Part shown: positions 5,859 through 60,376 of the stretch, piece after piece
Layout: every line of letters begins with the position of its first letter
How positions within the stretch are numbered: the stretch's first letter is position 1
Assembly: GCF_013085255.1 (NCBI RefSeq)
Contig: NZ_JABFCX010000003.1
Location: forward strand, 124,001 to 188,000
Length of the DNA: 64,000 nucleotides
Direction of reading: 5' to 3'
Source of the DNA: Parvularcula mediterranea
GTDB taxonomy: Bacteria; Pseudomonadota; Alphaproteobacteria; Caulobacterales; Parvularculaceae
Program-made: the position numbers and the translations under genes
Notes under the pieces: model-generated
What the model was told of the DNA's origin: nothing
What the model saw: the letters and a program-made list of their open reading frames with translations, nothing else
Database searches by the model: none

Positions 5859-8060
5859 TTACTCTGCGCGCACCTTGACGTAGCTTCCCGGCGCATCCTC
5901 GATCACTGACAGCTCGCCGTCACCGGGCACACGGGCAGGGACCTTGCCGCCTGAGCGCTCGGTCAGCCATTCGATCCAGTGGGGCCACCAGCTGTGCTCA
6001 TGGAACTCAGCGCCAGCGACCCATTCCTCCATGGAGGCCGGCAGGTCGTCATTGGTGCGGAAGTGGTACTTCTTCTTGTCAGGATGGTTGATCACCCCGG
6101 CAATGTGCCCAGAGCCCGCGAGCATGTAGGTCACGTCTGGCCCGCCGAAGAGCTGAGCCGAGCGGAAGACCGAGCCCGGAGGCGCGATGTGATCCTTCTC
6201 GCCAGCCTGCATGAAGACCGGCGTCTCAACCTTCGAGAGGTCAATCGTCACGCCGTCGATCTCCAGCTCGCCGAGCGCCAGCTTGTTGTGCTGGTAGAAC
6301 TCGCGAAGGTAGAAGAGGTGGCAGGCCTTGGTCATCCGTGTACTGTCGGCATTCCAGTGAAGGAGGTCGAACTTCTTCGCCTCCTTGCCCATGTAGTAAT
6401 TGTCGACGAACGCTGACCAGATAAGGTCGTTCGGGCGCAGCATGTTGAAAGTGCGCGCCATAGCCGAGCCTTCCAGCACGCCGCCTGACGCGTCGATCTG
6501 CTTCTCCATGTTCTTCAGCTGCTTATCGTCCACGAAGAGGAGGAGGTCGCCCGCTTCGACGAAGTCCGTCTGCGCCGTAAAGAACGTCGCGGTGTTGATC
6601 CGCTCATCGCCTTGCTGCGCCATGTAGCCCAGCGTGGTGGCCAGCAGCGTGCCGCCGATGCAGTAGCCGATCGTATCGAACTTCTCCGCGCCCGTAGCCC
6701 GGGTCGCGGCTTCCAGCGCCTCGTAGACGCCCTGGCGCATATAGTCGGGGAAGCTCTTGTCCTTGAGCTCCGTGCCCGGATTGACCCAGCTCACGACGAA
6801 GACCGTACGGCCTTGCTCGACCAGCCAGCGGATGAAGCTGTTCTGCGCCTGCAAGTCGAGGATGTAGAACTTGTTGATCCACGGCGGGAAGATCACCATC
6901 GGGTTCTCAGCCACATGCTCCGTTGCCGGAGAATACTGGATGAGCTGCATCATCTCGTTCTGGTAGACGACCTTGCCCGGCGTCGTGGCGAGGTTCTCGC
7001 CCACCTTGAAGAAGTCGAGGTCAGCCTGCCTGATCGCAAGCTCGCCGTGGCCCCGTTCGAGGTCGGCCATGAAGTTCTCAAGGCCCTTGATAAAGTTCGC
7101 CCCTTGCGTCGCCATTGTCTCGTCAACGACGTCAGGGTTGAGGGCAGGGACGTTCGTCGGCGACATGGCCGAGAGGAACTGGTCCGCATGGAATTGCGCC
7201 CGGCGCTTGGTCGCCTCGTCGATGCCGTCAGCCGCGAGGATCGCGTCGTCCACCCACTTCGACAGGATGAGATAGCTCTGCTTGACGAAATCGAGGGCAG
7301 GGTTCTCCGTCCACGCATCATGCTTGAACCGGCGGTCAGAGGCCGACGGTTCAATCACGGGCGTGGTCTCGCTGCCGGTGAACTTGTCCGCCATTGTCGC
7401 GAACAGCTTCGTGTAATTGTCCCACAGGCTCATCTGCAGGCCCATCACCTTCATCGGATCCTGGGACAGAGCGGTCATGACGTCGGTGGTCGCGTCGGCA
7501 ACGTTCAGCGGATCAGGGGTCGGCTCTGCGCCGCGACGGCCCCGCTGGACCTGCCGCTCGGTCGCGTCGCGCATGACGTCCTGCGCCTTGACGTTGATGT
7601 CGGCCATGGTCCGGGCAAACCGGGCCATGTCGGAATAGTCAGGGATCTTGGCATCGCCCGTGAACGGATTGTTCGGGAACTGAGTTTTGGCCTTGGCGGC
7701 CGTCACGTCCTTCAGCGGCGCTTCTTTCTTAGGAGCGGCCGATGCTGCTGGCGCTTTGGAAGCGGCCTTCTTCGCAGCTGCCTTCTTCACCGAGGCTTTC
7801 TTCGCAGGCGCCTTCTTCGCGGCCGTTTTCTTTGCAGCAGCCTTCTTGGCGGGTGCCTTCTTCGCAGCGGTTTTCTTCACCGGCGCTTTCTTGGCCGCTG
7901 TCTTCTTCGCAGGAGCCTTCTTCGCAGGAGCCTTGGCGGTCGGCGCGTCAGCGATCGCGCTGTCGTCCACGTCCGCGGCGGCCTTGATCGTGCGCGGCTT
8001 GGAAGGCGCGCGGGATGTCTTGGAGGCCCGGGTGCTCGTCTTGCGCTCGGTCTTGGACAT
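5859..8060 (-). CDS. phaC: Class I poly(3-hydroxyalkanoate) synthase with a histone-H1-like Lys/Ala-rich N-terminal tail
   Basis: PhaC polymerises (R)-3-hydroxyacyl-CoA into PHA/PHB on the surface of carbon-storage granules. The catalytic alpha/beta-hydrolase part has the lipase-like box GYCIGGT with nucleophile Cys467, plus Asp623 (KDHIAPP) and His652 (SGHIAG). The first ~125 residues are unusual: basic Ser/Thr-rich to residue 30, then eleven consecutive pentapeptides of the type [A/V]-K-K-[A/T]-[A/P/S] at 46-100. The protein is 733 residues, against roughly 560-600 for typical class I enzymes, and the active Cys sits about 148 residues later than Cys319 of the Cupriavidus enzyme. The ATG at 8060 follows AGAGG; a start at 8108 would add 16 residues. 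No phaR or phasin gene is nearby, apart from the small gene downstream. Confidence 0.96.
7761..7925 (-). repeat. Eleven tandem 15-bp coding repeats in phaC encoding Lys-Lys pentads
   Basis: The repeats encode residues 46-100 of PhaC, each unit reading x-K-K-x-x. Bases drift between units at third positions and at Ala/Thr/Pro/Val codons, while the Lys pair is kept in every unit. This looks like an old expansion under selection for the protein, not a recent slippage product. The tract is a likely length-variable site between strains. Confidence 0.9.
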
Positions 8061-8144
8061 CGTGAACCTCTCGTTAACGTCTTGGTCGCTTTCGCCAATC
8101 ATGTTCAAAAGCGTGAAGCCTGCAAATGCAACCGGTAGGGACAG

Positions 8145-22023: not shown

Positions 22024-24051
22024 TTAAGCCCCGCTGTCCACGAGCCGCACCTTCGCCCCGATAGTGCGGCCTTCGGCATCGGCTACCGTGAAGCGATAGA
22101 AGCCTTCGCCGTCGGGATGCCAGAGGACATTGCCGTGTCGGTCACGCTGAATCGGCTTGCCATCAACGTACCATGAGAGCGAGCCGTTCCCCCGGGCCGA
22201 AAGAACGAATGGCCTGCCATCAGCCTTGCTCCAGAGGGTCGAGCCGTCCTGAGGAAAGACGATCTCAGGTGCGGTCTGGCGCTTGATGCGGCGCAGGGCG
22301 ACGGGTTTGGGCTCTGCAGGACGATCCTCACCCACGCCCTCGCGCTGTACGCTGATCGCATCAAAGACGTCGAAGAGCACAGGTAGGGCTGTCTCCCGCC
22401 CGGTTGCGCCGGGCCTTGCGCCGCCATCGGGCCTGCCGATCCAGACGACGACAGCGTGGTCACCGCTCACGCCAGCAGCCCAGGCGTCGCGGAAGCCATA
22501 GGATGTGCCGGTCTTGAAGGCGATCCGGGTACCGCCCTTGCCCAGCTTCGCGGGCAGTCTTCCGTCTACGGTTGGAGATGCCTCGAGGATGCTGCGGATA
22601 TCCTCAGCGGCTTCGGCGGATAGGAGGCGGAAGGGTTCTTTCTGTCCGGCAACCAGCGCTTCCTCCTGAGTCCGGATCAGCGGGCGCACTTCGCCATCAT
22701 GCCCAAGCGCCGCGTAGAGAAGCGCGAGGTCCTGCGCCGTCGTGCCGAGGCCACCAAGCGCGACTGCGAGACTATGCGCCGAATTCTCCGTTCCCGGAAG
22801 AGCGACAGGCACGCCGCTGCTCCTGAGGCTGCCAAGGAAGCGGGCAGGCCCGACCCGGTCGAGGAGCAGGACAGCGGGAACATTGAGCGAATGCTGCAGG
22901 GCCTCCGCCGCCGTCAGTTCCCCGTTGAAGGTCCGTCCGAAGTTCTGGGGCTCATAGCCGCCAAAGCGTGTGGGCAGATCTGCGATCCGCGTGCCCGGTG
23001 CGGCAATCCCTTCCTGAAACGCAAGTCCGTAGACGAAGGGTTTCAGTGTGGAGCCCGGCGAGCGCTTGCGGTTGGTCAGGTCCATCCAGCCGCCCGGCCT
23101 GCCTCGTCCAACCGACCCCACCGAGGCGATAACGGCATTGTCTTCGAGGCGGACGATCAGCCCCGCAGCCTGAACATCGGGTCCTTCACTATCCGCCGTA
23201 ATGGCAAGGAGGCGCTGCAGCGCCATCTGGGCTGGTCTGTCGATCGTTGTGCGGAGGATGGCTCGCTTGTCGCCATCTTGTTTGAGGCTGCCCGCGAAAT
23301 GCCAGGCATCAGATGGGAAGGCCTTTCGGTCTTCCGGTACGGCTGCGACGTTCGCCTCATCCATGCGCTGCGCAGGAAGGAACTCCTTTGCCTCCAGCTG
23401 AGACAGGACCGCCTTGCGGCCACCGCGAGCAGCTTCAGGCCGCAGGTCGGGTCGTCGGGCCTCAGGGGCCTGAGGGATCGCCAGAAGAAGCGCGATCTCT
23501 GCATCCGTGAGCGCCTTGGGGTCCCGTCCGAGGTAGGCGAGGCTGGCGGTCCTGATGCCTTCCAGATTGCCGCCATAGGGCGTCAGCGTGAGATAGAGCT
23601 CAAGCACCTCGCGCTTTGTCAGCCTACGCTCGATCTGCCATGCCCGAAACGCTTCGATGGCCTTTGACGGCAGGGTTCTGGGACGAGGCTCGAGAAGCCG
23701 CGCTGTCTGCATCGTGATGGTCGAGGCACCCGATACGATCCGCCCTCGGAGAATGTTGTCCCGGCTTGCACGAAGAACGGCGAGCAAGTCCACACCGCCA
23801 TGCGCGTAGAACCGCTCGTCTTCGATCAGCAGGAGGGCTTCGATAAACCGCGGATCGACCCTGTCCAGATCAGCTGCCAGCCGCCAGCGTCCGTCTTCGA
23901 CGGGAAATGTCCTCAGCGGCAGGCCATCGGAGTCTGTCACGACTCGCGAGAGCTGCACCTCAAGCGGAGGAGGCAGGGCCCTGTCGATGGCCAGGACGAA
24001 GAGCGCCGCTGCCAGCAGCCCTCCGCCGAGGATCAGGGCCAGCCGTCTCAC
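22024..24051 (-). CDS. pbpC: Penicillin-binding protein 1C (bifunctional transglycosylase/transpeptidase)
   Basis: 675 residues. An N-terminal membrane anchor is followed by the GT51 glycosyltransferase domain (IEDERFYAHGGVD, GASTITMQTARLL), the transpeptidase domain with SPGSTLKP (SxxK), HSLN (SxN) and FKTGTSYGFRD (KTG), and a C-terminal BiPBP_C domain. It acts in the periplasm in cell-wall synthesis. The start overlaps the stop of the alpha-2-macroglobulin gene by 4 bases (ATGA), the widespread pbpC-macroglobulin operon in which the two are proposed to repair the wall and trap attacking proteases together. Confidence 0.96.
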   Translation of the reverse strand: MRRLALILGGGLLAAALFVLAIDRALPPPLEVQLSRVVTDSDGLPLRTFPVEDGRWRLAADLDRVDPRFIEALLLIEDERFYAHGGVDLLAVLRASRDNILRGRIVSGASTITMQTARLLEPRPRTLPSKAIEAFRAWQIERRLTKREVLELYLTLTPYGGNLEGIRTASLAYLGRDPKALTDAEIALLLAIPQAPEARRPDLRPEAARGGRKAVLSQLEAKEFLPAQRMDEANVAAVPEDRKAFPSDAWHFAGSLKQDGDKRAILRTTIDRPAQMALQRLLAITADSEGPDVQAAGLIVRLEDNAVIASVGSVGRGRPGGWMDLTNRKRSPGSTLKPFVYGLAFQEGIAAPGTRIADLPTRFGGYEPQNFGRTFNGELTAAEALQHSLNVPAVLLLDRVGPARFLGSLRSSGVPVALPGTENSAHSLAVALGGLGTTAQDLALLYAALGHDGEVRPLIRTQEEALVAGQKEPFRLLSAEAAEDIRSILEASPTVDGRLPAKLGKGGTRIAFKTGTSYGFRDAWAAGVSGDHAVVVWIGRPDGGARPGATGRETALPVLFDVFDAISVQREGVGEDRPAEPKPVALRRIKRQTAPEIVFPQDGSTLWSKADGRPFVLSARGNGSLSWYVDGKPIQRDRHGNVLWHPDGEGFYRFTVADAEGRTIGAKVRLVDSGA

Positions 24052-27000
24052 GGAGCGATGACCATCTCGCGGCTTGCCGAGCGCCCGAAGATCTGTGGAC
24101 GGTACATATCTTCGGTTACCGCGCCGGGAAGGGTGAAGCTTCCGGGCGTCACCGCTCGTGCGATGTAGGCAAAACTGAAAGGGTCATTCCCTGCACGGAT
24201 CACCGAGGCGACAAAGCGGTCATCCCTGGCTTCGGCGATATCGGCGCGGGTCAGCCTGCCAAGGAACCGGTAGGGGCCGCTGACGGCATCACCCGGATCC
24301 AGCACGGCTTCAATCTCGAGGCCAGCGGGGAGGAGGTCCGTGACCACCAGCTGCGCCCTGCGTTGCTCGGCACGGTTCAGGGTGAGCTTGACGATCACAC
24401 GGTCCCCGCGGGCCAGCGTCGTGAGGTCAACTTCGTTGCCCGCCGTGTCGGTGATCGCTTTCGTGACCTCAATGCCTTGGGAGGTAGCGGTAGGCGCCTC
24501 TGATGGGATGCCTTCCGTCAGGGTGCTGACGTAGATCGTCTCGTCGCCTGCGTTGTCGTAGCGCTCGCCAGTTGGAATACCATCGAGAACATCGCTTTGC
24601 GTCTGGCTTCCATCCTTGGTCAAGAAGGCCTGGTCACGGCCACGGGCCATGGCTTCTGCCGCCTTGAGGAGGAAGGCTTTCTCCTGCGTTGTCATACTCA
24701 GCGGATCGGGGAAGTTTTCGTCAGCACGGAAATAAAGCGCTGCGGCTTGTTCGGTCCTGCCGCTCTCGGCAAGGAGCTGGATGATGCCAGCTGCGTCGCG
24801 GTTGATGGTCTGGTACCAGTCCCCGCGATTGACGTAACCCGCCGTCGCGACCGCGCGCTTCAATGCGTTCTCGGACCGCCCCCTGTCGCCGATGGCTGCG
24901 AGTGCTGCGCCGATCTGGGCCTTGGCAAGGGGGCTTTCGATCTCGTCGAGCTGCGCATCGTGGACGTAGCGCAGGCGCGACCGGTCAGCCTTTCCGGCCT
25001 TCGCCAATACGTAGAGCGAGTAGGCGGACGAACGCTGCTCAAGTCTAGCTTGCGTATCCTCCGTATAGCGAGGAGACCTGATGCGGGTATCGTAGCCATA
25101 GGCGCGGTAGAGCTCACCCATACTCACGGGTTGAAGCGCGCGGTGGGCGAGGTCGAGCGCAGCTTCGGGAACCGGCATCCCCGCTTCGCGCGCTGCCGCT
25201 AAGAACTCCACGGCATAGGCGCCAAGCCAAGGCGATGCCGAGCGGTCACCGACGCGCCAGAGGCCAAAGGCTCCATCCGGGCCCTGCCGCTCGAGGAGCG
25301 TCTCGACGGTCTCACGGAGGATACGCGTCTCGCGATCATCCCGGTCGGACTTATAGAGCAGCGGCGTTGCGCGGCTCACCAGCTGCTCCGTACACCCGTA
25401 GGGATAGGAGAGGAGCGAGTTCGAAAGGCTCGCCCTGTCAATGGGCGTCGGTGAGGCAGAGATCAGCGTGCTGACCGAGCCTGGGATCAGCCCATCGAAC
25501 AGGTCTGCTGGCGGTGTGTAGCCGCCTCCAGCCTCGACGGTGGCCCTTGCGTAGCGGCGCTCAGGGAGAAACGCGCCGCGGGTCTCCATCTGATAGGTCC
25601 GGGAGATGCTGAAGCCTCGGGGTCCTTCGACGGCGAGGGTGTAGGTCTCCACGCCAGGGTCGCCAGCCGTCAGGGGCACCGAAGCTTCACGCCGCTCTCC
25701 GGCAGACAGATCGAAGCTGCCTGACACGGGTTCAATCGATCCGCTCTCTGTGCTGACGGTGTAGTTGTAGGTGCCGGCTGCGCCTTCCACATTGTCGACC
25801 GTGAGCGTCGCCTCGGCACTGTCGCCTGGCGAAAGGAAGCGCGGCAGGACGAGCTCTGCCGGCACAGGGTCGCGGACAGTTAGCGGTGCTGACGCTGAGC
25901 CCAGCGCATCGTCAGACCACAGAACGGCCATGACGCGCAGCTCGCCATTGAAGTCAGGAACGGCGACGTCGATTTGCGCTTCGCCATCGCTGCCGAAGCT
26001 GACCGGACCTTCGAAGAGCGCGACGGTCTTGGTTGGCACGACCGAGAGGCCTGCTCCGCCGATCGCGTCGCCACCTGAACGCAGGCGGCCCATTTCGCCC
26101 GTGTCTGGGTCCAGCAGCCGTCCGTAGTCGTCATAGACGTCAACGCCGAGCGAGCGTTTGCCGAAGATATAGTCCTCAGGATCTGGCGAGGCGTAGCGGG
26201 TGAGAAGGAGGATGCCCTCATCCACCGCCGCGAGGGTCGCATAGACTTCCTGCCCCGCCGCAATGTCTCCGCCGTCGATGGTGACGGTCAAATCCTCACG
26301 CGGACGAACGAGTTCGGGCATGTCGAGAGCCACGTCGAAGGTACGGCCGTCCATGTTCATGGGGACATAAGCAGCACCCACAGCACGGCGGGGGATCGGC
26401 TGGATGCCCGGCTTCCTGTCCGTATAGAGACTGACGAGGACGTAGGCGCCTGCGCCCCATTCCTCCGTGACGGTCAGGGTGACCTCCGTGCCTTCCGCGG
26501 GCACATCCACATGCTCCAGCGACAGGATGCCATCGGCGGCCACAGCGACCTCTGCGATGCCTGCGTAGGGCGGTTGAATCGCCACGGTGATCTCTTGGCC
26601 GACAGTGACCCCTTCGTCGGGTGTCAGGATGCGGACGCTGTCAGGCGCAGGCGTTCCGTCTGCGGAGCGGCCACCATAACCGACCCAGAAGCCGCGCGAC
26701 GCAAGGTCTTCGCCGTCATGGCTCGCGATGAGGGTATAGTCGCCCCAAGGCAGTTCCGGCGTTGAGACGAGCGCAGCGTCCGCTCCCGGTTGCGCAAGTC
26801 CTTCGGTGATGGTCACAATTCGCTTAGACCGTCTCCAGCGCCAGCGGCCGCTTTCTTCCCTGTACCAATCATACTCATAGTCGCGGCGGATGAGACGCCA
26901 GCGGACATCGGTGGAGAGAGGCACACCGTCGCCATCGACTGCGCGCAGCTCGAAGGTCGCGGGCTTCTCACGCTCTGCCGATCCCTCGAACCCGGGTTTC

Positions 27001-28862
27001 AGGCCAAGATAGACCTTCCGTGTGCGGTAGGGGATACGGACATCGTCCTGAACGGCCCTGCCGCCTGGCTCCTCGGCGCGCACGACAGCCCGCACGCGAA
27101 GGGGCTCAGCCGCGCCTTCGCCGAGATCCTCCGGCGCGATCGGCAAGGCGGCCACGCCTTCGCCATCGGTCGTAACGACAGGCAGCTCGAAGCTCTCTGC
27201 GCGGTAGGGCGCGTCGTGAAGACCGAAGCTGTAGCCTTCATGCTGGGGGAAGGGGTTCGGTTGCCGCTCGACACGGGCGGAGCCATCGACCCTGAGACCA
27301 GCGCCTGGCGCACCGTAGAGGAAGCGGAGCCGCGCCTCGACCATCCGTGTACCGCCGAGCGCAAGCGGCGTCTCTGTGTCAGCTTCAAGCGTGAGCGCGA
27401 GGCGTTGCGGCACGAAGTCCTCGACGGAGAAGCTGACGCTGCCGACCTGACCGAGGCCATCGAGCTCAAGAGCGGCGCTCCAGACCCCGCGGCTTGCGGC
27501 CTTGGGCAGCTCGAATGCCGCATAGGCGCTGCCAGCCTTCTCGAGCGCATCGAGGCGCACGCGCGCCTGCTCAAGGCCGTTCGGGCGACGCAGGACGAGG
27601 GCGCCCGGGCGGTCGTCCGCGGCATAGCCCTCGGCATTACGGGCGAGGGCGTTCACATGCACCGTCTCGCCGGGGCGATAGATGCCGCGTTCGGTGTAGA
27701 GATAGGCCTCGACATCCTCCGCCTGCTGACGGCCAGAGACGGGATGTGCTGAAAGATCGAGCGGCGCGCGATCGAGGTCGATGAAGGCAAAGTTGCCCCC
27801 GCGGCCTTCGACGACCACCAGCTTCGGCCTGTCGCCGACTTCGCCCCTGAGGAGGGGCGGGTCGAAGCGGACACGGCCTACGCGGCTTGCGACCTTGCTC
27901 GAGAGAACTTCGTTGGCCTGCGAGATCAGGCGCACCATCGTCCTGCCGACAGGTTCTGCGCTCGACAGGGAACGGACCGTGACGTCGAGGCCGGAGGCGC
28001 TGCGGTAGGCCGTCAGCGCAAGGTCCGTGACGATGATCCAGCGCCCAGCGCGCGCAGGCTGGCTCTCGCCACGATCGGCTGCGGAGGCGTCCGAGACCTG
28101 CACGTAGTAGGCCCCAGCTTCGAGCTCGCCGAAGCTTTCCTCAACAGGCATGAGCGTGGTCGTCAGGACATTGCGGGCCCCCGGGGTTTCCAGCGTCCCC
28201 TCATAGACAAAGCTCGAGAGCTCCCCCGGTTCCTCATCATACGGCGTATATTCGTATCGGCCTTCGGCGCCCGAGAAGCCTTCCGTGATCCGGCGCTGGA
28301 CGAGCGCCCGGTCGTTGACGCGGGTGATCCGGACACTGACTTCAGTGACATTGACGGTCTGGATCGCAAGGCCGCGTGCATCTTCGCGGGGAAGGATGAT
28401 GCCGTTGCCTGCAAACTGCACCACAGGCGGACGGTCGGTGAAAGTGAGGGTGACCGTCTCGTCGCGCTCGAGCCGCTCGCCATCGGCGCTCGGCAGGCCC
28501 GCGAGCAAGGTCAGCTCCGCCTCCTGGCCATAGTCGAGACCCTCGATGCAGAGGGCCTGCCCATCCACGGCGATGGCGACAGAGCGCTCGATCTCCACGA
28601 AGGGCTCATAGTCGGCCGACGGATCGAGGGGCTTGGTGAAATGGAGGCAGAGCGTCGGCTGGATTCTATCCTCGCGAACCGAGGTGCGCTGGAAGACGAA
28701 CGGTGTGTCCTGCGCCTGTTCCTGAGCATTGCTGCGCTGCGAAGGGGCTTCGGCGGTTCGGGTCGCCGAGGGCTCCTGGCTCTCGTCCGACCCTCCGAAA
28801 AAGTCGCAAGACACCAGAAGCAATGACGAAACGGCCAGTGCCGCACTGCGCAAAAATTTCAT
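24048..28862 (-). CDS. Bacterial alpha-2-macroglobulin lipoprotein (YfhM type)
   Basis: 1604 residues, the normal size for the family. The N-terminus MKFLRSAALAVSSLLLVSC is a lipoprotein signal, placing it on a periplasmic membrane face. Successive MG/MG1 domains, a bait-like region and the thioester domain are present; the reactive thioester motif is intact as Cys1157-Thr-Glu-Gln1160 within YPYGCTEQL. Bacterial macroglobulins trap foreign proteases by covalent capture. The ATG at 28862 opens directly with the signal peptide; the frame reaching 29501 is spurious. It is transcribed ahead of pbpC and divergent from the alkaline phosphatase, 84 bases away. Confidence 0.95.
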   Translation of the reverse strand: MKFLRSAALAVSSLLLVSCDFFGGSDESQEPSATRTAEAPSQRSNAQEQAQDTPFVFQRTSVREDRIQPTLCLHFTKPLDPSADYEPFVEIERSVAIAVDGQALCIEGLDYGQEAELTLLAGLPSADGERLERDETVTLTFTDRPPVVQFAGNGIILPREDARGLAIQTVNVTEVSVRITRVNDRALVQRRITEGFSGAEGRYEYTPYDEEPGELSSFVYEGTLETPGARNVLTTTLMPVEESFGELEAGAYYVQVSDASAADRGESQPARAGRWIIVTDLALTAYRSASGLDVTVRSLSSAEPVGRTMVRLISQANEVLSSKVASRVGRVRFDPPLLRGEVGDRPKLVVVEGRGGNFAFIDLDRAPLDLSAHPVSGRQQAEDVEAYLYTERGIYRPGETVHVNALARNAEGYAADDRPGALVLRRPNGLEQARVRLDALEKAGSAYAAFELPKAASRGVWSAALELDGLGQVGSVSFSVEDFVPQRLALTLEADTETPLALGGTRMVEARLRFLYGAPGAGLRVDGSARVERQPNPFPQHEGYSFGLHDAPYRAESFELPVVTTDGEGVAALPIAPEDLGEGAAEPLRVRAVVRAEEPGGRAVQDDVRIPYRTRKVYLGLKPGFEGSAEREKPATFELRAVDGDGVPLSTDVRWRLIRRDYEYDWYREESGRWRWRRSKRIVTITEGLAQPGADAALVSTPELPWGDYTLIASHDGEDLASRGFWVGYGGRSADGTPAPDSVRILTPDEGVTVGQEITVAIQPPYAGIAEVAVAADGILSLEHVDVPAEGTEVTLTVTEEWGAGAYVLVSLYTDRKPGIQPIPRRAVGAAYVPMNMDGRTFDVALDMPELVRPREDLTVTIDGGDIAAGQEVYATLAAVDEGILLLTRYASPDPEDYIFGKRSLGVDVYDDYGRLLDPDTGEMGRLRSGGDAIGGAGLSVVPTKTVALFEGPVSFGSDGEAQIDVAVPDFNGELRVMAVLWSDDALGSASAPLTVRDPVPAELVLPRFLSPGDSAEATLTVDNVEGAAGTYNYTVSTESGSIEPVSGSFDLSAGERREASVPLTAGDPGVETYTLAVEGPRGFSISRTYQMETRGAFLPERRYARATVEAGGGYTPPADLFDGLIPGSVSTLISASPTPIDRASLSNSLLSYPYGCTEQLVSRATPLLYKSDRDDRETRILRETVETLLERQGPDGAFGLWRVGDRSASPWLGAYAVEFLAAAREAGMPVPEAALDLAHRALQPVSMGELYRAYGYDTRIRSPRYTEDTQARLEQRSSAYSLYVLAKAGKADRSRLRYVHDAQLDEIESPLAKAQIGAALAAIGDRGRSENALKRAVATAGYVNRGDWYQTINRDAAGIIQLLAESGRTEQAAALYFRADENFPDPLSMTTQEKAFLLKAAEAMARGRDQAFLTKDGSQTQSDVLDGIPTGERYDNAGDETIYVSTLTEGIPSEAPTATSQGIEVTKAITDTAGNEVDLTTLARGDRVIVKLTLNRAEQRRAQLVVTDLLPAGLEIEAVLDPGDAVSGPYRFLGRLTRADIAEARDDRFVASVIRAGNDPFSFAYIARAVTPGSFTLPGAVTEDMYRPQIFGRSASREMVIAP

Positions 28863-28946
28863 ATTGTCCCGCCCGTTTTCCTCACCTTGAGACGTTGCCA
28901 CGGACGGGTGTTTGAGGGAAGCGAGCCTCCAGGATCGGAGGGCACC

Positions 28947-30416
28947 ATGGATCTTTTCGCCGTCATCGGAATGCAGGCAGCTGTCGAGCTGCGCGACTGG
29001 GAAGCTGAGGGGCGCGACGCGCTCTCCGCGGTCAAGGATCGCCAGCCGATCGAGCGCCCTGCGAAGAACGTCATCCTTTTCATCGCCGACGGCATGGACG
29101 TCACGACCTCCTCGGCGGCGCGCATCCTCGATGGGCAGCAGAAGGGCGGCATGGGCGAGGAGAACCTCCTGACCTTCGAAAGCCTGCCGTTCACGGGCTT
29201 CTCGCGGACCTACAACGTCAACATGCAGGTGCCGGACAGCGCCGGCACGGCGACGGCCATGATGACCGGCCACAAGACCAAGGCTGGCGTCATCAATGTC
29301 GACCAGACGGTGCCGCGCGGCGACTGCGCCGCTGCGGAAGGCAAGAACCTCCCGTCGATCCTCGAAGTTGCTCAGGAGACGGGCCGCTCGTCCGGCGTCA
29401 TCTCCACCGCGCGGATCACCCACGCGACGCCTGCTACGCTCTACGCCAGCTCGCCCGACCGCGGGTGGGAGGCTGCCGGTGACGTTCCCGAAGGCGCCCA
29501 AGGATGCCGGGACATTGCCCGCCAGCTGATCGACGCTGCGGAGAGCTACAACCTCGTCGTCGCCCTCGGTGGTGGCCGGACGAACTTCATCCCGAACGAC
29601 ATGAAGGACCCCGAGTATGAGAACCGCTCAGGGCGCCGGAAAGACGGGCTGAACCTCATCAATGCCTGGGAAGAGATCAGCCGCCGCCACAAGACGGTGT
29701 TTTACGGCTCGCAGCTCGACGAGATCGGCCCTCGCGACAAGGTCCTCGGCCTCTTCGAGCCGAGCCACATGATGTACGAGCATGACCGCGTTACCGATGA
29801 GGCCGACGAGCCGAGCCTCGCCGAGATGACCCGCTTCGCTATCGAGCGGCTGAACAATGACCGTGACGGCTTCTTCCTCCTCGTGGAGGGCGGCCGGGTG
29901 GACCATGCCCACCATGGCGGCAATGCCTACCGCGCGCTCGTCGACACGATCGCTTTTGATGAAGCGGTGGAAGTGGCGCTGGAGATGACCGATCGCGAGG
30001 ACACGCTGATCATCGTCACGGCTGACCACGGTCACACCATGGCGTTCCAAGGCTATCCCCACCGGGGCAACCCGATCATGGGGGTCGTCAGGTCTGTCGA
30101 CTCCGAGGGCAATCCCGTGGATCTTCCGGCGCAGGCAGGCGACCAGCAGCCCTACACCACCCTCGGCTACATGAACGGCCCCGGCGCCCCCCGTCCCGCT
30201 AGCGAAGACAGCGCCCAGCGCCGTCCCTTCGTTGAGGAGCAGGAAGCCCTCGACCCTGACTACAAGCAGCAGGCCCTGATCCCGCACTTCTCCGAGACCC
30301 ACGGCGGCCAGGACGTCGCGATCTATGCAGTCGGCCCGAAGGCCCACTACCTGACGGGCGTGCACGAGCAGAGCTTCATCTACTACGTGATGGAAGACGC
30401 TCTCAGAAAAGAGTAG
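28947..30416 (+). CDS. Alkaline phosphatase (PhoA family) without an evident signal peptide
   Basis: 489 residues of the PhoA-type phosphomonoesterase family. Metal Asp48 lies in NVILFIADGM, nucleophile Ser98 in PDSAGTATAMMTG, then EGGRVDHAHHGGN and TADHGHTMAF, with the final zinc His in FSETHGGQDV. The ATG at 28947 has GGAGGG 4 bases upstream. Its N-terminus (MDLFAVIGMQAAVELRDWEAEG) lacks a basic-hydrophobic signal, whereas the family is normally exported. The longer frame from 28887 does not supply one either. No pho box was recognised. tRNA-Val lies 39 bases after the stop. Confidence 0.92.
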   Translation: MDLFAVIGMQAAVELRDWEAEGRDALSAVKDRQPIERPAKNVILFIADGMDVTTSSAARILDGQQKGGMGEENLLTFESLPFTGFSRTYNVNMQVPDSAGTATAMMTGHKTKAGVINVDQTVPRGDCAAAEGKNLPSILEVAQETGRSSGVISTARITHATPATLYASSPDRGWEAAGDVPEGAQGCRDIARQLIDAAESYNLVVALGGGRTNFIPNDMKDPEYENRSGRRKDGLNLINAWEEISRRHKTVFYGSQLDEIGPRDKVLGLFEPSHMMYEHDRVTDEADEPSLAEMTRFAIERLNNDRDGFFLLVEGGRVDHAHHGGNAYRALVDTIAFDEAVEVALEMTDREDTLIIVTADHGHTMAFQGYPHRGNPIMGVVRSVDSEGNPVDLPAQAGDQQPYTTLGYMNGPGAPRPASEDSAQRRPFVEEQEALDPDYKQQALIPHFSETHGGQDVAIYAVGPKAHYLTGVHEQSFIYYVMEDALRKE

Positions 30417-42159: not shown

Positions 42160-42265
42160 AACCCGCGTGAGGGTTAAGGTTTCGATTGAACCGGGGCGCA
42201 CACTTCCTTATCTGTTCATCCGGCAAATTGCCGATAGCGATTGAGCAATAGAAGGAGACCGCCCC

Positions 42266-42802
42266 ATCGCCCGCAGACCCATGAACATGACCCCGCCGAA
42301 GCAGACGGGGCCAAGAATGAACGAAAACATCCGCGCCGCGAAGATCCTGGTGATCGACGAAGAGGGCGAGAAACGTGGCCCGATGTCCACGCAGGATGGT
42401 ATGGATCTGGCGGCCAAGGCTGGTCTCGACCTCGTTGAAGTGAATCTGGGCGAGGTCCCCGTCTGCAAGCTGATGGACTGGGGCAAGCACAAGTACCAGC
42501 AGCAGAAGAAGAAGGCCGAGGCCAAGAAGAAGCAGAAGATCGTCGAGATCAAAGAGATCAAGATGCGTCCGAACATCGACAAGCATGACTATGAGGTGAA
42601 AACCAAGGCCATGCGCAAGTTCTTCGATGAGGGCGACAAGGTGAAGGTCACCCTGCGCTTCCGTGGCCGCGAAATGGCCCACCAGGAACGGGGCATGGAC
42701 CTCCTCAACAAGGTCCGTGAAGAGTTCGAAGAGACCACGAAGGTCGAGGCCATGCCCAAGCTGGAAGGCCGCCAGATGATGATGGTCCTCGCCCCGCGCT
42801 AA
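42266..42802 (+). CDS. infC: Translation initiation factor IF-3, probable ATC start codon
   Basis: IF-3 binds the 30S subunit and enforces correct start-codon choice. The protein (178 residues) has the N-domain ([38 protein letters not shown]), a Lys-rich linker and the C-domain ([17 protein letters not shown]). GAAGGAG at 42251-42257 is spaced 8 bases from ATC at 42266, whereas the first in-frame ATG (42281) is 23 bases away. infC is known to use rare AUU-type starts for self-repression through IF-3 itself, so ATC is the likely start here. rpmI and rplT do not follow, unlike in many bacteria. Confidence 0.95.
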
Positions 42803-58258: not shown

Positions 58259-60376
58259 TTGCTCTCAGACCTATGGTTTGGGGCAATCTACGGGGTATTT
58301 CAGGACGTGCTTGGCGAACTGGGTGCAGCCTTTTCTTTCGATCGTTATGCCGATGAAATCATGCGGCAGACGATGCTCGACCCTGCAGGGATGCAGACGG
58401 TGGAGTTCGGTGTCCTTGGCGCTCTGGGTCTTGGGGCCCTCGCTTCGTTTGCCCTGATGATCATTCGTAGGTCAGGCACGGCTGCTGCGGGTTTCGCTCT
58501 CCTTGTTCTCACTGCGCTTTCCCAGGCGATGCTCTTCGGCATCCTCGATTTCGTCACAGGCAGCACGCAGATCCTGATCGGCGCCCTGACGGCAAGTGCG
58601 CTCCTCCTCTTCGTCAATGCGGTGCTCCACACGGGCCGCGAGAACATCCTGATCGCTGGCCTTTCGGCGATCATCATCCTCGGCACCCTCGGCCTTGCTG
58701 GCGCGAACGCAGCGGGCATGGACTTCGCCGAGGAGGCGCGGCTGGCGATGGCTGGAGCCACCGCGGTCTCCGCGATCCTCCTCATCTACGCGATGGTCCG
58801 TGATCCGGCGGGCAAGGCGTTCCTGGGTCTGACCATCATTCTTGCCCTGGCGGCTTCGTTCCTGATGAGCGATCCGATCTTCCCGGTCATGCGCTCCATG
58901 ATGCCGGTCATTTTCCCGTCCGTTCTGATTGCAGCAGGGATGCTGCTCGCGACCCTGACGGCCCCGTTCTTCGCCGACGAGATGCGCATGCCTTCGCGGG
59001 CCGAGCGCCGTGCTGCTGCCGAACCCGTGGCGATGCCAGCGTCGCTCTTCGGAGACGATGATTCACTCCCGCAGCATTCAGGTATCAGCCGCCACCGCCC
59101 GCAGGAGCGGGAGGATTTCACGCCCCCGTCCGTGACGAGCTATCGTGAGGAGCAGCCCGAGCCGGCTCCGCGCCAGGATGGAGCCCGCGACGCGGACCGC
59201 TTTGACGGCGTCGCCGCAGCGGCTGCCACGGCTGCCGCATTCACCGCGGCGGCTGCCAAGGATGGAGACCCTGTCTCCAGCTACTGGCACGACGATCACA
59301 CCGCGATCATCGAGGCCGAGGCCGAGGAGTATGTCTGGGACGTCCTCGCCAATCCTGAAGTTCGCCTGGGCGAAGACGTGCTCCGCGCGTTCGGCGGCAT
59401 GTCGCCTGAGGAGATGACCCCTGAGGGCCTGCGTGAGCGCCTGTCCCCAGAGAGCCTTGCTGCCTTCGACGATGAAGTTCTTGGCGGTGGAGAGCCTGTA
59501 TCCGGGACGTTCGAGACGCGCCTTGAGACGCACGGTGCCATCTTCACCTTCCGGGGCCGCCGCAAGGTCGACCATGACGGCATCCTGATGCGGATCGACG
59601 CTGAGGTGACCGAAGTTGAGGCAAAGGCCCAGCCCACTGCAGCGCTCGCAGCTCCCGCCTCAACCGCGGAACCGCTGAGCCCGCAGGTGAAGCCCGCGGC
59701 GACCCTGTCTGGCGGCGGCGTCTCCGGCGTGGTCGTGGACCTCAACGGCGTGAGCAAACCAGAGGACGTCCGCCTCCTGATCGACGACGCGGGCAGGGCG
59801 CTGGCTGGCCTCATGGCCTCGGGTGTGAAGCGTCCGTTTGCCCTGATCGACAGCACCTCAGGCCGTGTCCGGCCGGGTGTCCTTGCTGCCGCTGTGGGCA
59901 AGGCGAGCCGCGTCCATGAGCTGCCCCGCAACGCAATGGTCGTAACCTTGCCGGTGCCGACGCCTCGCGAGATGAAGGGCTTCAAGGCTGCTGCTGAAGA
60001 CATCCGCACGGCGGGCGGCGGCGTTGGCCTGACGATTGAGAGCTTGAAGGACAAGCTGCCCAAGAAGTTCGAAGCGGACATGCTGCTGGTGAGCGCTGTC
60101 GACGTCCTTCACCCGAAAAAGCGTGGCCGGAAATCGGCGATCGAGGCGCTCCTGCGGAAGGTCGAGGCGCCCGTGCTGGTCAGGGATCTCGGTGACGAGG
60201 GCGATGCCGACCATGCCTCCGAGGATGGCGCGCGCTTTGGATCGGGCAGGGCGTTCGCAGGCCTCGCTATTCCGCTCGCGGGTGCTGCACCAGAGGAAGA
60301 GGCGGGCTCAGGCATTGCGCCGCTCAACCACCCCGGCGGTGCGGTTTCCGCGATGCGGGCTAACGGCCTGCGCTAG
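58259..60376 (+). CDS. 7-TM membrane protein with PAS-like and degenerate EAL-like domains
   Basis: 705 residues. Seven hydrophobic helices lie at about 48-69, 76-98, 104-123, 130-150, 162-180, 188-203 and 214-239. A Pro/Ala-rich acidic linker follows, then a PAS-like segment near 345-455 (VWDVLANPEVRLGEDVLRAF, FTFRGRRKVDHDG). The C-terminal region near 500-680 runs like an EAL phosphodiesterase fold, with a final RFGSGRAFAGLAIPL resembling the GxGYxFGxP end. The EAL signature and metal ligands are not recognisable, so it is probably not an active c-di-GMP phosphodiesterase, but may bind a ligand or partner. TTG 58259 is the start, and no good ribosome site is seen. Confidence 0.72.
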   Translation: MLSDLWFGAIYGVFQDVLGELGAAFSFDRYADEIMRQTMLDPAGMQTVEFGVLGALGLGALASFALMIIRRSGTAAAGFALLVLTALSQAMLFGILDFVTGSTQILIGALTASALLLFVNAVLHTGRENILIAGLSAIIILGTLGLAGANAAGMDFAEEARLAMAGATAVSAILLIYAMVRDPAGKAFLGLTIILALAASFLMSDPIFPVMRSMMPVIFPSVLIAAGMLLATLTAPFFADEMRMPSRAERRAAAEPVAMPASLFGDDDSLPQHSGISRHRPQEREDFTPPSVTSYREEQPEPAPRQDGARDADRFDGVAAAAATAAAFTAAAAKDGDPVSSYWHDDHTAIIEAEAEEYVWDVLANPEVRLGEDVLRAFGGMSPEEMTPEGLRERLSPESLAAFDDEVLGGGEPVSGTFETRLETHGAIFTFRGRRKVDHDGILMRIDAEVTEVEAKAQPTAALAAPASTAEPLSPQVKPAATLSGGGVSGVVVDLNGVSKPEDVRLLIDDAGRALAGLMASGVKRPFALIDSTSGRVRPGVLAAAVGKASRVHELPRNAMVVTLPVPTPREMKGFKAAAEDIRTAGGGVGLTIESLKDKLPKKFEADMLLVSAVDVLHPKKRGRKSAIEALLRKVEAPVLVRDLGDEGDADHASEDGARFGSGRAFAGLAIPLAGAAPEEEAGSGIAPLNHPGGAVSAMRANGLR

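Follow-up and report, generated by a model that had tools for sequence, protein, structure and literature searches.

A class I PHA synthase of Parvularcula mediterranea with a lysine-rich N-terminal tail, a possible tether of PHA granules to the nucleoid

The phaC gene and its basic N-terminal tail

The stretch of Parvularcula mediterranea DNA analysed (the window, 64,000 nucleotides of contig NZ_JABFCX010000003.1) carries on its minus strand, at 5859..8060, a phaC gene whose 733-aa product, initiated at the ATG at 8060, is a class I PHA synthase with an N-terminal basic tail. The NCBIfam class I PHA synthase profile TIGR01838 scores it at 717.9 bits (cut-off 622.65), and Pfam recognizes the PhaC_N domain PF07167 (residues 242–413; 6822..7337, minus strand) together with an alpha/beta hydrolase domain. 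Cys467 within GYCIGG (codon at 6660..6662), Asp623 within EKDHIA (6192..6194) and His652 within GSGHIAG (6105..6107), all on the minus strand, form what we take to be the Cys-Asp-His catalytic triad of a class I PHA synthase. It is intact, as in the original prediction: each residue lies in its motif, and the three columns are invariant in an alignment of 25 family members.

From an anchor 322 residues before the catalytic Cys, 144 residues extend to the N-terminus of this PhaC versus 2–17 in 33 of the 38 PhaCs of the class sample. The extra part is thus about 127–142 residues, close to the 125 or so first proposed. A Shine-Dalgarno-like GAGAGG (8067..8072, minus strand) is 6 nt 5′ of the ATG at 8060. 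Internal candidates are less well placed: GTG119 has an AAGG only 2 nt away, Met145 has no ribosome-binding site, and Met163 has an AGGA 4 nt 5′, but a start there would cut a predicted helix at residues 145–171. With the tail also kept in relatives, a translation start after it, which the original prediction had named as an outcome that would speak against its reading, was rejected on present evidence. Starts 5′ of 8060 (TTG 8108 and ATG 8102) were likewise rejected, inspection by eye finding no well-placed Shine-Dalgarno sequence for either.

The tail proper, residues 1–140 (7641..8060, minus strand), is basic and of low complexity, with 35 K, 4 R, 43 A and 14 P, a net charge of +31 and 11 large hydrophobic residues. 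At residues 46–100 (7761..7925, minus strand) are the eleven x-K-K-x-x pentads already remarked on in the original prediction, their KK at 47, 52, 57 and so on to 97 with an exact 5-residue spacing; one more KK, at 111, is off register. When residues 41–110 were shuffled 20,000 times, eleven KK never fell in one register, a property computed on the P. mediterranea PhaC alone. Exact PAKKA is present three times in the tail versus 0.07 expected, and none of 500 shuffles of the tail composition reached three. The pentad array is encoded by a diverged tandem DNA repeat with a 15-bp period (15/30/45 bp). The mean difference per site from pentad to pentad is 0.21 at first, 0.065 at second and 0.49 at third codon positions, so the pentads have drifted mostly without altering Lys or the small residues; at the level of sequence, this bias points to constraint on the protein.

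Among the 280 open frames of at least 100 aa in the window, the maximum number of Lys per 60 residues is 24 for PhaC, then 18, then 9. The frame with 18 (42245–42802, plus strand) is by eye translation factor IF-3 and, as it is the sole other frame above 9, the idea of another histone-like protein in the window was rejected. Elsewhere in the window, at 22024–29501 (minus strand), a bacterial alpha-2-macroglobulin (1817 aa) adjoins a penicillin-binding protein with transglycosylase, transpeptidase and BiPBP_C domains, a familiar gene pair, and a 705-aa frame at 58259–60376 (plus strand) has zero Pfam matches at E 1e-5.

An AlphaFold2 model built with 25 family sequences gives zero secondary structure to residues 1–140, with pLDDT about 35–45. 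The first long predicted helix is at the end of the tail (residues 145–171; 7548..7628, minus strand), at a low-confidence pLDDT of about 45. Since the mean pLDDT of the whole model is 65.8, and core parts 325–351 and 536–573 are also below 50, the low values for the tail fit disorder without proving it; on the best reading of the model the tail is predicted to be disordered.

The tail had originally been termed histone-H1-like. Two histone profiles are below their curated cut-offs on PhaC, HC2 (PF07382) at 30.7 versus 40 bits and hist_H1_lk_Burk (NF038053) at 32.2 versus 80 bits, and the HC2 profile matches 2 of 25 family members. As the Extensin profile fits the tail about as well as HC2 does, the HC2 match is an effect of composition. 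Fusion to a known histone family was accordingly rejected, both for the scores under cut-off and for the Extensin match; what stands of the original wording is, judged from the sequence, a likeness to histone H1 in composition only. Chlamydial Hc2 and bacterial histone-H1-like proteins are stand-alone proteins, unlike the PhaC tail. They have Lys-rich pentamers, as the tail does (for Hc2, PMC2848022).

Distribution of the tail

The sample of Parvularculaceae comprised 37 genomes, of which 34 have a main-type PhaC, complete at its N-terminus in 32. All 32 have a Lys-rich tail, with 6–36 Lys in 39–180 residues. Its net charge runs from +13 to +31 in the 10 members of the genus itself and from +2 to +40 in the remaining 22. 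By the chosen threshold 29 of the 32, which together span 8 genus codes, are basic; the three with a low net charge of +2 to +4 (L005, L007, L013) belong to one genus. The 'tail' label used below (at least 35 residues, net +5 and 6 Lys) is arbitrary, and L132, L116, L017, L025, L067, L072 and L093, among others, are just under it. PAKKA-like words ([PA][AT]KK[AT]) number 9 in the P. mediterranea PhaC, 0–4 in the nine other members of the genus and 0–2 in the rest of the family, and exact PAKKA, found in 9 of the 32, is absent from 23. The tail aligns poorly even inside the genus: across Parvularculaceae its make-up is kept and its sequence is not.

Start codons in the family and order rows were picked by eye. 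The nearest-start-codon rule was set aside for these rows, where it shortened the tails of L033, L034, L040, L043, L004 and L008; it was applied automatically to the class and named rows, in which tails are possibly under-called. By the criterion used, a Shine-Dalgarno-like site is present at the chosen start in 10 of 10 members of the genus and in 5 of 22 elsewhere in the family. [In six phaC genes from other Parvularculaceae genera (L003, L004, L006, L008, L009, L010) the product starts MTQ..., at an ATG six codons past an in-frame stop. 5′ of these starts there is no Shine-Dalgarno sequence and a TAACCC..TATC..G-like stretch recurs, possibly the −10 box of a leaderless phaC mRNA.]

The tail is a feature of one PhaC type. 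It is absent from all 14 other PhaC copies inspected in Parvularculaceae (no more than +7 net per 50 residues, with one KK or none), these being 14 of 18 further family matches, with four short partial matches left out. The maximum net charge per 50 residues of main-type PhaC is +12 to +20 in the genus and from 0 (L005, L007, L013) to +21 in the other 22, so that main-type and other copies overlap in five short-tailed members. Nor is a basic tail present in any of 21 Parvularculaceae Phasin_2 proteins (no 50-residue segment exceeds +2 net), a count that omits L189, L194, L205 and L206 and includes second phasins for the P. mediterranea genome only. Two Phasin_2 genes are present in that genome. 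Its best PF05597 (PhaF/PhaI) match stays under the cut-off (11.6 versus 28.8 bits), and PhaC itself has no PF05597 match. A search of the same genome with the tail as query returned PhaC itself (E 4e-19), the sole match below E 1, and then one weak match at E 1.03.

One phasin of the same order does have such a tail. In genome G044 of another family (f5) the first 75 or so residues of a Phasin_2 protein, L203, form a K/A/P tail with +15 net per 50, and the PhaC of that genome has a tail of +10. Either protein can therefore bear such a tail, and the phasin is, from its sequence, a candidate tether in place of the synthase. Helix-hairpin-helix (HhH) proteins were also inspected for a phasin of the PhaH type. 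PF14520 (HHH_5) in 7 genomes gave 30 loci, of which 8 frames were read, and a bL21-derived HhH probe in 17 genomes gave 13 loci, of which 11 frames were read; none of the frames read was a phasin by eye, in both cases without a positive control. The frames were by eye RuvA, bL21, RadC, PolX-like and membrane proteins, and those of Caulobacteraceae were likewise without a phasin. What was by eye bL21 in several relatives (L228/L237, L238, L244, L245, L246, L248) has a Lys/Ala-rich linker followed by an HhH-like domain, and in four others (L239, L241, L242, L243) a membrane-like segment is combined, by eye, with a helix-hairpin-helix-like domain.

The tail was mapped on a tree of homologues, as the original prediction had proposed. 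FastTree was run on PhaC cores, tail excluded, with 163 rows; L014, L032 and L086 (contig ends), L163 (a motif variant) and the duplicates L056, L057, L066 and L096 had been omitted, and the named rows came from a Caulobacterales-weighted query, making the sample uneven. The 32 Parvularculaceae PhaCs group with one Marinicaulis row in a single clade (support 100), and 30 of its 33 members are at or above the 'tail' threshold. In a second clade, that of the other Caulobacterales, 15 of 38 rows reach it. The 91 other rows, nearly all alphaproteobacterial by title or sample, include one such row (L176), and in this group there are 0–30 residues before the anchor except in L068, L132 and L176. A further tailed row, L173, is apart from these three groups. 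The label needs 15 changes on the tree; when labels are shuffled the mean is 41, and none of 500 shuffles is as low.

Since the Parvularculaceae clade is not adjacent to the Caulobacterales clade in the PhaC tree, the tails were perhaps gained separately. Ala/Pro/Lys tails are found in Caulobacteraceae PhaCs too. In a phylum sample 68 of 200 genomes had a match, and 20 PhaC frames of at least 658 aa were inspected by eye with start codons unchecked, two frames of 658–659 aa being left out. Seven of the 20 (L263, L264, L265, L267, L268, L271, L272), all from Alphaproteobacteria, have by eye Ala/Pro/Lys/Arg-rich N-parts with as many as 11 Lys per 50 residues; that of L264 contains PAAKKPAAKKPAAK. 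The N-part of L270 was borderline, and no basic N-part was seen by eye in the four frames from outside Alphaproteobacteria (L269, L273, L275, L282). With tails in several alphaproteobacterial PhaCs, basic tails seemingly arose more than once, and those in a few other Alphaproteobacteria are apparently independent of the ones in Parvularculaceae.

What the tail may bind

The original prediction likened the tail to those of PhaM and PhaF, and the comparison has gained in substance. The eleven KK pentads, three PAKKA and lack of predicted structure are features of a PhaM/PhaF-like tail, and to these are added retention throughout the family and absence from the other PhaCs and the phasins. By analogy, the target is best read as DNA or another polyanion. 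With little more than even confidence, we lean to the proposal that the disordered, polylysine-rich tail binds DNA in the manner of the PhaM, PhaF and AlgP tails, and so holds nascent granules on the nucleoid. The regularly spaced Lys pairs would bind DNA without sequence preference. As PHA synthase remains on the polymer surface during granule growth, its tail would keep nascent granules on the nucleoid, and granules so held would be spaced and shared out at division. DNA binding, nucleoid attachment and partition by the tail are all what we infer from the analogy. Against the proposal stand the three family members with a net charge of +2 to +4, the 23 without exact PAKKA, the poor alignability of the tail, the 17 of 22 chosen starts outside the genus that lack a Shine-Dalgarno sequence, and the HC2 score under its cut-off.

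Three other explanations have to be weighed against this. The 15/30/45 bp tandem repeat, and a length anywhere between 39 and 180 residues among Parvularculaceae, are what might be expected of a low-complexity solubility or spacer tail, grown by slippage of the 15-bp repeat and tolerated rather than selected. The tail's basic character by threshold in 29 of the 32 family PhaCs (8 genus codes), its confinement to one PhaC type and pentad differences mostly at third positions argue against this origin, which seems rather improbable. Binding to a different polyanion (polyphosphate granules, RNA or ribosomes), which would bring PHA synthesis to polysomes or next to polyphosphate, draws on the fact that polybasic tails bind RNA and polyphosphate as well. 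The KPAA tail of AlgP, homologous to that of PhaF, serves polyphosphate granules (PMC9239181), and the Lys/Ala-rich linker on what is by eye bL21 of relatives (L228/L237, L238) goes in the same direction. However, the closest PHA-granule matches, PhaM and PhaF, are reported to work via DNA and there is no pointer to polyphosphate specifically, which leaves this alternative unlikely.

An action at the enzyme or granule surface, where the tail would recruit or activate PhaC or contact phasins without tethering to DNA, is quite unlikely. PhaM does activate PhaC1 (PMC9049629), and the tail connects to the N-terminal helices that separate it from PhaC_N; but neither the strict Lys periodicity nor the PAKKA of the P. 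mediterranea tail is obviously required for activation, and family-wide only the make-up of the tail is conserved.

The proposal that the tail attaches granules to DNA can be extended, more tentatively and with the balance of probability somewhat against it. The PHA synthase of Parvularculaceae (and by convergence that of a few other alphaproteobacterial lineages) could be its own nucleoid tether, replacing PhaM, PhaF or PhaH, with granule birth and segregation coupled in one polypeptide and with tail length and charge setting granule number. If true, a bacterial organelle would here be positioned by very simple means, a synthase with a built-in tether, and the tail would be a ready part for granule placement in plastic-producing strains.

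Comparison with known systems

PHB granules of Cupriavidus are reportedly held on the nucleoid through the PAKKA lysines of PhaM (PMC9049629). PhaM of Cupriavidus necator resembles the P. mediterranea PhaC in having a Lys-rich PAKKA tail at the PHA granule, where it links PhaC and DNA (PMC9049629), but it is a separate adaptor with the tail at its C-terminus, whereas here the tail is N-terminal and on the synthase itself. PhaF of Pseudomonas putida and AlgP of P. aeruginosa both have disordered DNA-binding repeats of 4–5 residues rich in Lys, Ala and Pro (PMC3574117, PMC9239181), the PhaF C-terminus having 4- and 5-aa repeats and being unfolded without DNA (PMC3574117); their tails are C-terminal, of KPAA type, and carried by a phasin or by a polyphosphate-granule protein.

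Nearer in phylogeny, Caulobacter crescentus, of the same order, is reported to position its granules with the adaptor PhaH (PMC13052382). The granule–nucleoid link is shared with what is proposed here, but PhaH is a helix-hairpin-helix phasin rather than a polybasic tail. In four Caulobacter PhaC rows (C. crescentus not among them) the tail has a net charge of −2 (L070), +4 (L067), +5 (L063) and +12 (L023 = L066). As at least some Caulobacter PhaCs are tailed and there is a reported need for PhaH, the tail of a PhaC may not suffice, and tail and adaptor may coexist in Caulobacter. For an alphaproteobacterium without a PhaM homologue, Rhodobacter sphaeroides, the nature of granule–nucleoid contact is stated to be unknown (PMC11352279).

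Among the matches listed from the open-access literature (most subscription papers are outside it), none was seen to describe a histone-like tail on a bacterial PhaC. What comes closest in print among those matches concerns PhaC of Haloferax mediterranei, whose disordered C-terminus has a helix-hairpin-helix domain with a function stated to be unknown (PMC12028471). There too a synthase may have its own DNA-binding part, though the protein is haloarchaeal and the part is a C-terminal HhH domain as against an N-terminal polybasic tail here. In P. mediterranea the enzyme is known and the type of tether is known; their arrangement is new.
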